Shown: positions 36,852-41,148 of the stretch, piece after piece
Layout: each line of letters starts with the position of its first letter
How positions within the stretch are numbered: the first letter of the stretch is position 1
Source of the DNA: Aliarcobacter sp.
Lineage (GTDB): Bacteria > Campylobacterota > Campylobacteria > Campylobacterales > Arcobacteraceae
Length of the DNA stretch: 41,416 nt
Reading direction: 5' to 3'
Assembly (NCBI GenBank): GCA_028681275.1
Contig: JAQUIV010000004.1
Coordinates: 1-41,416 of the forward strand
The notes under the pieces: model-generated
Seen by the model: only the letters and a program-made list of their open reading frames with translations
Database searches by the model: none
Told to the model about the DNA's origin: nothing
Translations under genes and position numbers: made by a program

Positions 36852-38072
36852 ATGTTATCAAGTGACAATTTTATAGATTTAGGAACAAAGTTTCAAACAA
36901 CTTGTAAACCAATGTCTAGAATATTTATTTTACTTACAATCCCAAGTGCTTTACTTGCAATAATAATTTTATGCTATTTAGGGAAATTACCATTAAAAGT
37001 AGAAATTCATAGTGTAATTCTAATAGGATTTATCTATTTTATCTACCTATTTTTCGTAAAACATAATGCTTATTATGTTTCATGCAAATTTAAAACTCAA
37101 CATGAAAGTATGTTTTTTTCTTTAAAAGATTATGTGGATAATAATTTATTAACTATTGATAATACTACTAAAGCAAATGGAAGTGTTGATGATTTTTTAC
37201 AAGATTATACAAGCAATCTAAGAAATACAAACTTCTCTTCAATAGCTTCAGGAATTTTCCCAACACTTGGTATTTTAGGAACTTTTATATCAATTGCATT
37301 AAGTATGCCTGATTTTTCAACTGGAACTACAACAGCACTTGAACAAGAGATTTCACTACTTTTAGGTGGAGTTGGAACAGCGTTTTATGTTTCAATTTAT
37401 GGAATATTTTTATCAATTTGGTGGACTTTTTTTGAAAAAATTGGAATGAGTAGATTTGAACATGATGCTTTTTTAATCAAAGAATCAACTAAATCATTTT
37501 TCTGGACAAGAATTGATATTGAATCAATTCATATAAAAAGTAATCTTGATAATTTCTCTAAAATGTCAGAAGTTTTTGAAAAATTAACTTCAAGTAATAT
37601 GATGGATAATATCAATCTTTTAATAGAAAAAAGAGTTGAAATTCTTGATGAAATTCTAAAAAAAGAGTTAATTTTATCTACAAAAATTAGTGAAAATATT
37701 GATAATAACGAAAAATTATCAACAATGTTAAAAGATATGACTTTAAATATGAGTACAACAATTAGAAGTTTTGAACAACAAAAAGATTCTTATACTCTTA
37801 GTGCTCAACTTTTAAATAATAGTATTGGAAAATTAAATTCTCATTTAGATAATCTAAGTTCAGATAACCTAAAAGCAATTTATTCAAATATTGTGAAAAG
37901 TATTGAAACAATGAAAAGTGATATGGAAAAAATCGAATGGAAATTTAAACAAGGTTTAGATGAATACGATACTAAATTTGCAGATAAATTACAAAATTCA
38001 CTTGAATCAATAGACCAACAAACAGTAAAAATAATAGAAGATTTAACAGAGTTTAAAGAACTATCAAAGTAG
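36852..38072 (+). CDS. MotA/TolQ/ExbB-like channel protein, ZorA-like
   Basis: This 406-aa inner-membrane protein has four hydrophobic helices: about 23-43, 52-70, 130-150 and 167-190. The last two form a MotA/ExbB-type core (IFPTLGILGTFISIALSM and LLLGGVGTAFYVSIYGIFLS). After residue 215 comes a long cytosolic coiled-coil tail of nearly 190 residues. That long tail is a hallmark of ZorA from Zorya anti-phage systems and of related lone motor pairs, and is not found in flagellar MotA. AAGGA lies 6 bases before the ATG. The partner gene starts 6 bases downstream. By family knowledge the pair forms a 5:2 ion-driven stator. No Zorya effector gene is nearby, so the task is unknown. Confidence 0.8.
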   Translation: MLSSDNFIDLGTKFQTTCKPMSRIFILLTIPSALLAIIILCYLGKLPLKVEIHSVILIGFIYFIYLFFVKHNAYYVSCKFKTQHESMFFSLKDYVDNNLLTIDNTTKANGSVDDFLQDYTSNLRNTNFSSIASGIFPTLGILGTFISIALSMPDFSTGTTTALEQEISLLLGGVGTAFYVSIYGIFLSIWWTFFEKIGMSRFEHDAFLIKESTKSFFWTRIDIESIHIKSNLDNFSKMSEVFEKLTSSNMMDNINLLIEKRVEILDEILKKELILSTKISENIDNNEKLSTMLKDMTLNMSTTIRSFEQQKDSYTLSAQLLNNSIGKLNSHLDNLSSDNLKAIYSNIVKSIETMKSDMEKIEWKFKQGLDEYDTKFADKLQNSLESIDQQTVKIIEDLTEFKELSK

Positions 38073-38078
38073 CCATAA

Positions 38079-39086
38079 ATGTACAATAAAGAACAAAAAA
38101 ATGATGAAAACTTCTGGATTTCTTATGCAGATTTAATGGCTGGTTTACTTTTTGTATTTATTTTAGTTCTTGGAGCTATTGTAATAAAATATATTTTTAC
38201 TCAAAATAATTTAGAAAAAGAGAAATTAGCTTTAAATCAAAGTCAAGAAGAGTTGACAAATAAAAATGAAGTTTTAGATAAATTAAATACTTTAATAAAA
38301 AAACTTGAAGATGAAAAAACAGAGTTATCAACTCAGTTATCAAAATCAAATGAAACTATTAATTTAACTAATAGTGAATTGCAAAAATTAAAAGATGTTT
38401 TATTAGCTTATGAAATAAAAGACAAAGAACAAACAACAGAGCTTGAAAACACTAAAAATACAATCACTCTAAAAGATAGTGAACTTAATGTTTTAATAAA
38501 TAAATTACTTGAGCAAGAAAAAGCTCACCAAAAAACCGTTGAAGAGTTTGATATTACAAAAGCTAAAATCAAAACTTTAACTGGAATAAAACTAAATGTT
38601 ATCAAAAAACTAAAAGAGAAATTAGGAAAATCTATAAATATAGATGAAAAAAGTGGAGCTATAAAATTCTCTTCAAATATTTTATTTGACCAAAATGCAT
38701 ATAAACTAAAAGATAGCTCAAAAAAAGAGCTTGATGTTGTACTAAAAAAATATATTTCTACTCTACTTGAAGATAAAGAGATTAGAAAATATATCCATGG
38801 AATCACTATTGAAGGACATACAAACAGTGATGGTACATATTTAAGTAACTTACAACTTTCTCAACAAAGAGCTTTAGAAGTTATGCAGTTTTTATATGAA
38901 TCAAATAGTATAAATAAAGATTTATTAAATAAATATGTAAGTTCAAGTGGAAAATCATCTTCAGATTTAATATACAAAGATGGAGTTGAAGATAAAGATG
39001 CTTCAAGAAGAATTGAGATTAAATTTATCATCAAAAATGAAGAAGCAGTAAAAGAACTTCAAAATTATTTAGGGGAAAAAGAGTAA
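38079..39086 (+). CDS. MotB/OmpA-like partner, ZorB-like
   Basis: This 335-aa protein has a single N-terminal membrane helix (about 21-41). The ion-binding Asp18 lies in FWISYADLMAGLLFVF. A long periplasmic coiled coil (about 45-180) follows, then an OmpA-type peptidoglycan-binding domain (about 205-325) with EGHTNSDGTYLSNLQLSQQRA and SRRIEIKF. This fits the MotB/ZorB architecture, but the periplasmic coiled coil is unusually long; classic MotB has only a short plug and linker. It follows the MotA-like gene by 6 bases with no ribosome binding site of its own, suggesting coupling. Its stop overlaps the ATG of a 46-residue gene. Confidence 0.82.
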   Translation: MYNKEQKNDENFWISYADLMAGLLFVFILVLGAIVIKYIFTQNNLEKEKLALNQSQEELTNKNEVLDKLNTLIKKLEDEKTELSTQLSKSNETINLTNSELQKLKDVLLAYEIKDKEQTTELENTKNTITLKDSELNVLINKLLEQEKAHQKTVEEFDITKAKIKTLTGIKLNVIKKLKEKLGKSINIDEKSGAIKFSSNILFDQNAYKLKDSSKKELDVVLKKYISTLLEDKEIRKYIHGITIEGHTNSDGTYLSNLQLSQQRALEVMQFLYESNSINKDLLNKYVSSSGKSSSDLIYKDGVEDKDASRRIEIKFIIKNEEAVKELQNYLGEKE

Positions 39087-39226
39087 TGGAAATATCAAAA
39101 GAATCTCTTTATGAACCTAAAAATCTTCAAGCTTTAAGAGCTGATGTAAATGAAAAACTAAAGAAGAAAAGTAGATTTTCTTTCTTTAGAAAAATTAAGA
39201 AGTTTTTTTTAGATATAATAAAATAA
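39086..39226 (+). CDS. 46-aa basic protein coupled to the ZorB-like gene
   Basis: The sequence TAATG makes the stop of the MotB-like gene overlap this start. AGGGGA (39071-39076) lies 9 bases upstream, so translation is well supported. The first half is helical and polar (MEISKESLYEPKNLQAL). The second half is strongly basic with aromatic residues (KKKSRFSFFRKIKKFFLD) and could lie on a membrane surface or bind the acidic tail of the MotA-like protein. No known family is recognised. It could be a small regulator or assembly factor of the motor pair. It is easy to miss because of its size. Confidence 0.6.
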   Translation: MEISKESLYEPKNLQALRADVNEKLKKKSRFSFFRKIKKFFLDIIK

Positions 39227-39246
39227 CATTTTAATAAGGAGTTCTT

Positions 39247-39738
39247 ATTTATAATTTATTTTTTTTAGTTTTATTTACTTCTTTACTAAATGCCCAATCG
39301 TTGGCAACTTTTCCAAAAAATATAAATGAAATGGTTCTTGTAAAACAAAGTGTAATTCCAGGAAAAAATGTAATTTTACCAAAAGAGACACCACTTTTTT
39401 TGCAAGAAACAGTAAAAATGTATAACTGGATAAACAATGGAGAGGGAACAAAATTAAATATCTTTGTTCCAAAAGAAAAAATTGAACAATATAAAAATCA
39501 TGGTCCATACACTGATGGAGTAACAGCAGTTGCTATTTATGAAGACCAAAATATAGTATTTGTTACAGAACATATTGATGGTGAACCTATTTATGGAACT
39601 TACGATAGAGCCGGAAATGATATTAGTAAAACTCACATCTCTTTAGAAATAAACAAATGTTATCAATGCCATGAGGGATATTCTGATATTTGTAAAAATG
39701 GAACTTGCGCAACTCCTATTATTGATATTTTCAAATAA
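39247..39738 (+). CDS. Cytochrome P460-family c-type heme protein, ATT start
   Basis: This is a 163-aa exported heme protein. The C-terminal heme motif KCYQCHEG (Cys138, Cys141, His142) and the preceding pattern around YDRAGNDISKTH fit the cytochrome P460 family, whose members act on hydroxylamine or NO, or serve as cytochrome c'-beta. No ATG or GTG occurs at a suitable place. AAGGAG (39236-39241) is followed 5 bases later by ATT at 39247, which opens a clear signal peptide (YNLFFLVLFTSLLNAQS). The only other start, a TTG at 39301, would remove that signal and strand the heme protein in the cytosol. Extra Cys residues follow the heme motif. It is 20 bases after the microprotein and 3 before the diguanylate cyclase. 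Confidence 0.72.
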   Translation: MYNLFFLVLFTSLLNAQSLATFPKNINEMVLVKQSVIPGKNVILPKETPLFLQETVKMYNWINNGEGTKLNIFVPKEKIEQYKNHGPYTDGVTAVAIYEDQNIVFVTEHIDGEPIYGTYDRAGNDISKTHISLEINKCYQCHEGYSDICKNGTCATPIIDIFK

Positions 39739-39741
39739 ATT

Positions 39742-41148
39742 ATGAATTTAAATTTAAAAAATAAGATATTTTTATCACATTTAATACTAATTTTTTTATT
39801 ACTAATTGGACTATCTTACAGACAATATATTAATCAATTGGATAATTATATAAAGTATGTTAGTTCTTTTCATAAATCAGCATCTTATTCAATCGTAAAT
39901 ACTTTTTCCCTTTCAATTTCTGGAAATAATTATGCAAATGTCCAACTACCAATGTTTATAAATGAACTTCAGAGAAATAGTAAATTATTATATTTAAAAG
40001 CAGAAGGAATTACTGACGAATCTTTGTCATTATTTAGAGTAAATTATGATAAAGAATTAAAAGAGATATGGAGAGATATTTATCCTGAAAATTTTGAAAA
40101 AGAGATAGATAAAAAAATAGAATCTTTATCTTTAAAATTAAATAATTCCCAAGAAGACAAAATAAAAATTGAATTTTTGATAAAACGTTCACAAGATGCA
40201 CTAGATGAATATAAAAGAAATATACTTTTAAATACTCAATATTCAAATAAATATAGTGATTATTTAAACCATGAAGATACTTTTGTTGATTTACAAAAAA
40301 AGATTTTAGTTTTAAATTTAAAAACAGATAATAAAAATGGTGGAAATTTAAAAATGATATTTGATATATCTGAGGTATCTAATATTCAAAAAAATATTAT
40401 TTACAATATATTAATTGAATTTGTTATTTCACTTGTTTTCTCAATTTTTATACTCAATATTCTTTCAAATAGAATAACTAATCCACTAAATCAATTATCA
40501 TCATTTATATCAAATGATTTATCAAAATTAAAAATTGATGAAATTCCTGCAATAAATCGTTCAGATGAAATAGGTGTTTTAGCTAAAACTTTTTCTAAAC
40601 TTTTAGGACAAATTAATATATATGTAGAAAAACTTGAATTTATAAATAAAATTGACCCATTAACAGGAATCTATAACAGAAGAGCTTTTGATGAACTTTC
40701 GAAAGAGATTTTAAATATAAATGAAAATAAATTTACAGCTATTCTTTATTTAGATATAGATAATTTTAAAAAATATAATGATTTTTACGGTCATAATATG
40801 GGTGATATTACACTTCAAAAAGTTGCAAGAACCATTAATAATACTTTAGAAAAAAAAGATGATAAATCTTTTAGATTAGGTGGCGAAGAGTTTTGTGTTT
40901 TTATAATAGTAAATAATCAAAAAGAGATGATACAAATTTCTAATAAAATTCTAAAAAATATTAGAAAATTAAATATTGAACACATAGAAAATGATAATAA
41001 AGAAATTGTTACCATTTCTATTGGTGCTTACTTAAATACCTCAAATAAAACTATCACAGAAATGCTTCAATACGCAGACAAAGCCCTATATAAAGCAAAG
41101 GAAAATGGAAGAGATAGATTAGAGATTTTTAATTTAGAAAATCTCTAA
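39742..41148 (+). CDS. Membrane diguanylate cyclase with HAMP and periplasmic sensor
   Basis: This 468-aa signalling enzyme makes cyclic di-GMP from two GTP. Order: membrane helix (about 10-24), periplasmic helical sensor domain (about 25-218), second helix (219-241), HAMP (242-295) and GGDEF domain (about 300-465). The latter has DPLTGIYNRRAF, the metal-binding LDIDNFKKYND, and the active-site GGEEF (380-384). The RxxD inhibitory site before GGEEF is KKDD here, so product inhibition by the usual I-site is doubtful. It begins 3 bases after the cytochrome P460 stop, so the heme protein is probably its periplasmic input or a functional partner. Its 3' end overlaps the convergent dehydrogenase by 20 bases. 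Confidence 0.9.
   Translation: MNLNLKNKIFLSHLILIFLLLIGLSYRQYINQLDNYIKYVSSFHKSASYSIVNTFSLSISGNNYANVQLPMFINELQRNSKLLYLKAEGITDESLSLFRVNYDKELKEIWRDIYPENFEKEIDKKIESLSLKLNNSQEDKIKIEFLIKRSQDALDEYKRNILLNTQYSNKYSDYLNHEDTFVDLQKKILVLNLKTDNKNGGNLKMIFDISEVSNIQKNIIYNILIEFVISLVFSIFILNILSNRITNPLNQLSSFISNDLSKLKIDEIPAINRSDEIGVLAKTFSKLLGQINIYVEKLEFINKIDPLTGIYNRRAFDELSKEILNINENKFTAILYLDIDNFKKYNDFYGHNMGDITLQKVARTINNTLEKKDDKSFRLGGEEFCVFIIVNNQKEMIQISNKILKNIRKLNIEHIENDNKEIVTISIGAYLNTSNKTITEMLQYADKALYKAKENGRDRLEIFNLENL

Follow-up and report, generated by a model that had tools for sequence, protein, structure and literature searches.

We analysed a window of 41,416 nucleotides, the whole stretch of contig JAQUIV010000004.1 (positions 1 to 41,416, forward strand) from an Aliarcobacter sp. 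of the Arcobacteraceae (GCA_028681275.1; 1.84 Mb, 157 contigs, 77% complete). Near its end, a gene for a c-type heme protein, predicted to be exported, stands directly ahead of a gene for a membrane diguanylate cyclase. The features of the locus, in window coordinates, are as follows.

39227-41131: insertion spot bounded by a 46-amino-acid ORF and a dehydrogenase gene in convergent orientation; five genus genomes have it uninterrupted
39236..39241, + strand: Shine-Dalgarno-like AAGGAG ahead of the heme gene, 5 nt before the ATT at 39247
39247..39738, + strand: exported c-type heme protein with a cytochrome c'-beta/P460 fold (homologs, predicted structure, structural alignments)
39532..39534, + strand: Ala96, aligned (8gar and 2je2) with the lysine that cross-links the heme in P460
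39658..39672, + strand: CxxCH heme-attachment motif, residues 138-142, present in 71/72 homologs
39691..39708, + strand: Cys149 to Cys154, a possible disulfide; both kept or both lost in homologs
39739..39741, + strand: gap of 3 bases between heme gene and cyclase, read from the sequence
39742..41148, + strand: membrane diguanylate cyclase with TM1, periplasmic sensor, TM2, HAMP-like linker and GGDEF domain (sequence, predicted structure, fold search)
39826..40377, + strand: periplasmic sensor, about residues 29-212, limits by eye from the model; common to chemoreceptors
39922..39924, + strand: Gly61 of the G-x-N sensor motif, kept in 65/67 full paired receptors and 2/6 lone receptors
40462..40611, + strand: HAMP-like linker, residues 241-290 (PF00672, 16.2 bits, below the cut-off of 25)
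40879..40893, + strand: GGEEF active-site motif, residues 380-384, read from the sequence

The open reading frame of the heme gene has 163 codons (39247-39735) and ends in a TAA stop (39736-39738). Upstream of residue 19 it holds no ATG, GTG or TTG, the earliest of these being a TTG at 39301. The ATT at 39247 is the likely start, chosen because it keeps a signal-like N-terminus and follows the AAGGAG by 5 nt. This ATT may be a genuine rare start codon, or the draft genome may contain a sequence error here. Because of the ATT start, and because the signal-like N-terminus has no basic residue, export of the window protein is less certain. The protein has one CxxCH, a motif found in 43/43 sequences of our smaller homolog alignment and in 71/72 of the larger one, where the sole sequence without it is the broken fragment of locus L005. 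At the places of Cys149 and Cys154, 63 of the 72 homologs have cysteine at both, 7 have Gly and Met, and 2 have gaps.

As the initial annotation stated, only three bases separate the stop of the heme gene from the ATG of the cyclase at 39742. The cyclase is 468 amino acids long (stop 41146-41148) and carries the GGDEF domain (PF00990, E 4.9e-41) with a GG(D/E)EF motif by which diguanylate cyclases are recognized; in a fold search, GGDEF structures match its model with Z 25-26. Placed by eye, its membrane helices lie near residues 8-30 and 214-238, and the predicted model has long helices (5-47 and 210-257) around these membrane spans. The periplasmic sensor that had been put at ~190 residues is present, with ~183 residues by this reading. 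HAMP PF00672 matches 20 of 22 cyclase homologs at E up to 0.1. As for the sensor itself, a Pfam search of 40 sensor domains at E up to 1 gave no family that matched more than two of them, Cache families matched none of the cyclases, chemoreceptors or sensor domains, and a comparison with PDB sequences gave no convincing match (best E 0.047). Its secondary structure, judged by eye, is compatible with a PAS-like Cache fold, and the fold-search matches cover the GGDEF part; the sensor may be a divergent Cache-like domain. Many diguanylate cyclases have an RxxD product-inhibition site. The residues ahead of GGEEF (40861-40893) are KKDDKSFRL, so that RxxD seems absent here, and the Desulfopila homolog (L006) has RKGD. 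The last 20 bases of the cyclase gene (41129-41148) also belong to the dehydrogenase ORF, which is convergent.

The heme gene and the cyclase form an insert in this genome, as seen by comparison with nine genus relatives that have the upstream ZorB-like gene. In five of these (G017, G020, G021, G022 and G023), 115 bases (stop-to-stop frames) lead from the ZorB-like gene to the dehydrogenase, with no pair in between. G025 has other cargo of about 1.4 kb (L161) at the same insertion spot, and in the remaining three no dehydrogenase lies within the stretch covered. The basic 46-amino-acid ORF at 39086-39226, which matches no Pfam or NCBIfam family, was found at the same place when the junctions of G020, G022, G023 and G025 were read. 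Since it belongs to the relatives' junctions too, the window insert consists of the heme gene and the cyclase only. Further upstream (36852-39086) lies a MotA/ExbB-like and OmpA/MotB-like pair that resembles ZorA/ZorB, with NCBIfam matches far below their cut-offs. Of 31 genus genomes, 30 have the ZorB-like gene, this genome among them, so this pair looks housekeeping rather than a Zorya system. We rejected the idea that the heme gene is part of the ZorAB-like operon, given that distribution, the finding of the heme protein in no other searched genus genome, and the status of the pair as an insert.

The heme protein had been labeled a P460. Its AlphaFold2 model (mean pLDDT 83.9) shows the beta-sheet fold that, together with a C-terminal CxxCH, marks the c'-beta/P460 superfamily. 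The best 12 structural alignments are all to cytochromes c'-beta (Z 8.6-10.2) or P460 (Z 6.0-8.5), and the next chain reaches Z 3.7. The closest predicted fold is a cytochrome c'-beta, 7ead (Z 10.2, rmsd 2.7 over 113 residues); another, 6hih, aligns with Z 9.8 and rmsd 2.9 over 112 residues. A Foldseek search with the same model had no c'-beta or P460 among the best 50 matches listed (best E 0.034), so the relationship rests on the second structural aligner. The Pfam family Cytochrome_P460 (PF16694) scores 12.2 bits on the window protein, below the cut-off of 27, and matches 33 of 43 homologs at E up to 1 (best E 9.4e-5). A search of the protein's own genome with PF16694 gave no match, and the controls gave none either.

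A further point is the residue that cross-links to the heme in P460. Its position is given in the residue table of a review of P460 and c'-beta, in the part of that source available (PMC11928373), and we located it here, five residues past a shared D-G, from an alignment to 8gar and 2je2 that is weak yet anchored by a motif. Among 72 homologs this place holds Ala in 46, Leu in 23, Gly in 2, Val in 1 and Lys in 0/72. According to the same part of the review, cytochromes c'-beta carry Phe, Met, Leu, Val, Ile or Glu there (PMC11928373). A hydrophobic residue in place of the lysine, a c'-beta feature, is thus found here as well; Leu and Val are in that published list and Ala and Gly fall outside it, which makes the Ala of the window protein unusual for a c'-beta. 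Another mark of cytochromes c'-beta is a distal capping residue, Phe or Arg. Sequence and model suggest a c'-beta-like protein, closer to a gas binder than to a hydroxylamine-oxidizing P460; we rejected the latter because the lysine is absent from 72/72 homologs. The P460 label therefore holds for the predicted superfamily fold and fails on the defining lysine and on the Pfam score. Hydroxylamine, one of the cues that the initial annotation had the heme protein report, is made unlikely by the same lysine count. The heme protein is probably a ligand binder, by its modeled fold. In the available text of the review, the c'-beta of Methylococcus binds NO and CO (PMC11928373), and cytochromes c'-beta in general are described, in the sources as available, as putative NO binders whose role is unsettled.

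The pairing of the heme protein with a membrane receptor extends well beyond this genome. Co-occurrence across genomes had been named beforehand as a check on the proposed sensor, and the neighborhood proved conserved. In one profile scan of species genomes, many of them draft MAGs, we found 42 loci with relatives of the heme protein, and a membrane receptor adjoins it in 42/42. In 41 of these the receptor gene follows immediately downstream in the same orientation, and in L038 it lies directly upstream. It is of the cyclase type in 23 loci (L006-L028), hosted by Vibrio, Enterovibrio, Veronia, Reinekea, a Desulfopila, gammaproteobacterial MAGs and one Helicobacteraceae MAG. The GGDEF motif is seen in 21 of the 23; L009 runs off its contig, and the frame of L013 is broken. 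In the other 19 loci (L029-L047), from Campylobacterota, Nitrospinota, Nitrospirales and a Thiobacillus, the receptor is of the chemoreceptor type. The MCP signaling domain was matched in 17 of the 18 chemoreceptor-type receptors scanned, and one piece of the broken L045, outside those 18, carries the MCP motif. One gammaproteobacterial MAG (G459) has a pair of each type, L007 and L087. Loci with broken frames stand outside the cyclase alignment (L010, L013) and the chemoreceptor alignment (L045), and L002-L005 stand outside all three alignments of the main scan, that of the heme protein included. The heme proteins linked to chemoreceptors (L029-L047) have two more paired cysteines, at the positions of residues 41 and 60, in 19/19 cases. 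In the larger alignment 19 of 72 homologs have cysteine at both positions, and the pair is absent from cyclase-linked heme proteins.

The two receptor types share their periplasmic domain. An hhalign comparison of 22 cyclase-type with 18 chemoreceptor domains gave Prob 98.0 and E 2.3e-13, and in the joint sensor alignment two glycines are invariant, with N, S, L and N-G-G positions nearly so. We read these loci as one sensor module family with two predicted outputs, cyclase or chemoreceptor. Of the two-protein c-di-GMP sensor first proposed, the conserved pair stands (42/42 loci), while its restriction to c-di-GMP does not, as 19/42 loci have a chemoreceptor-type receptor.

We also reversed the search, with the periplasmic domain of the receptor as the profile. 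The sensor was found in all 42 genomes, and 8/8 extra receptor copies have a heme gene directly upstream. Among 197 Vibrionaceae genomes, the family of V. harveyi, the sensor occurs in 34 and the heme protein in 29, all among the 34. By coordinates, 35/35 heme genes adjoin a receptor and 35/41 receptors adjoin a heme gene, with a split match in G465 counted once and the flanks of the six lone receptors read. In 321 Gammaproteobacteria, the sensor was found in 4 genomes as 5 receptors, 5/5 beside a heme gene; two of these are in G467 and the other three carry the MCP motif. For the Vibrionaceae counts and the G467 pairs, no more than 18 candidates per genome were scored. In 298 Campylobacterota, the heme and sensor profiles match the same two genomes, and single-sequence searches of other samples added two further Campylobacterota genomes, G046 and G426. 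The heme protein is present in 2/104 family genomes and 3/397 phylum genomes; the heme-protein ORF of L002 (G046, same family) is identical in sequence to that of L044. No relative was found in the viral contigs searched. The linkage counts of the 42-locus scan and of the Vibrionaceae and Gammaproteobacteria samples led us to reject a chance neighborhood. A split fusion was also rejected: the cyclase starts with a membrane helix of its own, and the gaps in relatives run from about -4 to +250 bases, depending on the start codons chosen, in different frames, although in the window the heme and cyclase frames agree.

It is tempting to ask what happens to the receptor when its partner is missing. 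Six Vibrionaceae receptors have no heme gene and all six keep the GGDEF motif, so the cyclase can persist without the heme protein. Well-supported branches in a tree of 49 cyclases require five changes to account for the lone state. Three of the lone receptors (L138-L140) lie downstream of a 185-amino-acid gene, which we take to be a pgsA; the same gene stands ahead of intact pairs in L012, L021 and L024, and loss of the heme gene is therefore the simpler reading. In four of the five lone lineages, Gly61 of the sensor is replaced by N, N, D or R. In the fifth (L141/L142), Gly61 is retained and Gly201 is changed, along with Gly89, a change shared with its paired sister L105. Gly61 is kept in 65/67 full paired receptors versus 2/6 lone ones (Fisher 2.0e-4, ignoring relatedness), and Gly61, Gly89 and Gly201 are all kept in 64/67 versus 0/6 (Fisher 4.9e-7, likewise ignoring relatedness). 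For the tree and these counts, near-identical sensors were collapsed and matches of <100 residues removed (the second half of L013); the paired receptors number 67 instead of 69 because the partial L009 and L013 were left out, and three gammaproteobacterial loci from the 321-genome sample stand outside the counts. The two paired exceptions, both with Ala at Gly61, are L095, which has an intact-looking partner (245 bits), and L134, whose partner is short. In L134/L144 the heme protein ends just after CxxCH and the adjoining receptor has Ala for Gly61, possibly a decaying pair. General decay is not the whole story, since the lone L091, with its Gly61 change, sits on a branch that does not exceed its paired sister's in length (0.22 vs 0.32). 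From these patterns we infer that Gly61 may lie where the heme protein acts.

Co-variation points the same way. Across 43 cyclase-type pairs, heme-protein distances correlate with sensor distances (r 0.73) and with GGDEF distances (r 0.55), and sensor and GGDEF distances correlate with each other (r 0.86). After controlling for GGDEF, the partial correlation between heme protein and sensor amounts to 0.61, a value reached by 0/2000 permutations. This speaks against GGDEF alone as the cause of the co-variation, even with the close correlation of sensor and GGDEF. The glycine changes in 4/5 loss lineages and the co-variation beyond GGDEF together suggest contact between heme protein and sensor.

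On the evidence of sequences and models, we consider it highly probable that the heme protein and the receptor form a functional two-protein extracytoplasmic sensor. In the mechanism that we propose, the exported c'-beta-like cytochrome would carry the heme and meet the signal, and would dock on the receptor's periplasmic domain, probably close to Gly61-x-Asn63. Gain or loss of a ligand, or a redox change in the cytochrome, would alter the docking contact; TM2 and the HAMP-like linker would pass the change to GGDEF, and c-di-GMP would go up or down. In the other branch, the same heme protein and sensor pair would drive a chemoreceptor. The contact, the direction of the effect, the role of Gly61 and the ligand are what we infer in this scheme. 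For NO as the ligand we see an even chance; redox state or another small ligand as the cue is somewhat less probable, and hydroxylamine turnover by the heme protein is very unlikely, the chemistry being disfavored by the missing cross-linking lysine.

The strongest competing explanation makes the heme protein a redox or structural subunit with no gas ligand, one that keeps the receptor in a single state until oxidation or damage releases or alters this subunit. The joint conservation or loss of Cys149 and Cys154 would suit such a redox switch, and there is an analogy in YfiR-YfiN. However, CxxCH is kept in 71/72 homologs, including 7 without the cysteine pair, which makes the heme the constant part, and we regard this explanation as unlikely. 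A second possibility has the heme protein as an enzyme or scavenger (hydroxylamine oxidation, peroxidase or NO buffering) and the receptor sensing the substrate or product alone, so that the two share an operon and do not touch. Close gene linkage by itself would fit this too, and relatives of the fold oxidize hydroxylamine or bind NO, as stated in the available part of the review (PMC11928373). Against it stand the cross-linking lysine, lacking throughout the homologs, the sensor glycine that changes in 4/5 heme-loss lineages and the co-variation of heme protein and sensor beyond GGDEF, and it appears improbable. That the two genes are chance neighbors traveling on a mobile segment would fit the rarity of the pair in the phylum and its state as an insert here, but the insert comprises only these two genes, and the linkage recurs across several phyla, beside different flanking genes and with either type of output, counts that already contradict this idea and make it almost certainly wrong.

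The two-protein extracytoplasmic sensor, our preferred reading, has partial parallels among known systems. NspS-MbaA, the polyamine receptor of Vibrio cholerae, is described in the source as available as a separate periplasmic polyamine-binding protein with a bifunctional membrane c-di-GMP receptor, and the pairing of a periplasmic protein with such a receptor is similar. MbaA carries both GGDEF and EAL domains. In our pair, by contrast, a c-type heme protein is the partner, and GGDEF stands alone in the receptor, with no EAL match. YfiN is controlled by a periplasmic partner, YfiR, which is thought to hold it in one state, and the YfiBNR receptor has a CHASE8 periplasmic domain. Like YfiN, our cyclase has a membrane-bound arrangement with HAMP and GGDEF, and its residues 184-453 match the DgcN/YfiN model (E 7.8e-37, 127 bits, far below the cut-off of 325); unlike YfiBNR, the partner is a heme protein, and CHASE8 is not among the Pfam matches of the cyclases or sensors. 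The H-NOX (HNOB) heme proteins are cytoplasmic. To our knowledge, the heme-based c-di-GMP sensors tabulated in PMC8846402 are cytoplasmic too. The accessible part of that review lists a stand-alone heme protein, H-NOX, with a partner cyclase in its table of NO sensors, and has 0 occurrences of "cytochrome" (PMC8846402). Our pair likewise joins a separate heme protein to a cyclase, but the heme is c-type, the fold is different and the protein is predicted to be exported; HNOB was not matched, and P460 is the sole, weak, match. Judged by its sequence features, the pair is a member of none of NspS-MbaA, YfiR-YfiN and H-NOX/cyclase, as one defining feature of each is missing.

The sCache_heme receptors (DUF3365) also bring an extracytoplasmic c-type heme to signaling proteins, with NO-sensor properties, according to the available text of a 2026 preprint (PMC12889525). 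There, CxxCH lies within the receptor's own Cache domain, whereas here it sits in a separate protein of another fold; the window cyclase sequence has no CxxCH, and DUF3365 does not match the cyclases. The cytochromes c'-beta of Methylococcus and Thermus offer the closest predicted fold and share the lack of a cross-link lysine. No signaling partner for them is apparent in the accessible text of the 2025 review, which has 0 occurrences of "diguanylate", "chemotaxis", "operon" and "signal transduction" (PMC11928373); here, a receptor partner is encoded beside the heme protein. In the open-licence literature we found no paper on cytochrome P460 together with diguanylate cyclase and no published description of a heme protein-receptor pair, the broad queries covering top matches only.

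NO and redox cues guide the bacterial choice between biofilm and swimming. Our most specific proposal, for which we put the chances slightly short of even, is an undescribed receptor class. In it, a detachable cytochrome c'-beta would serve an uncatalogued periplasmic domain as its gas-sensing subunit, probably for NO; this domain would be plugged into a cyclase or a chemoreceptor, would spread as a two-gene cassette and would read the heme subunit through Gly61-x-Asn63. If true, this would give the c'-beta family a signaling role and a concrete partner, and having c-di-GMP and chemotaxis receptors alike served by a separate, exported heme subunit would amount to a different means of reading the outside. 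The lone receptors and Gly61 open the way to a direct genetic test. One further locus of Vibrio campbellii (L005:5010-5830) has a heme frame broken before CxxCH together with a shortened receptor, and both partners look decayed.
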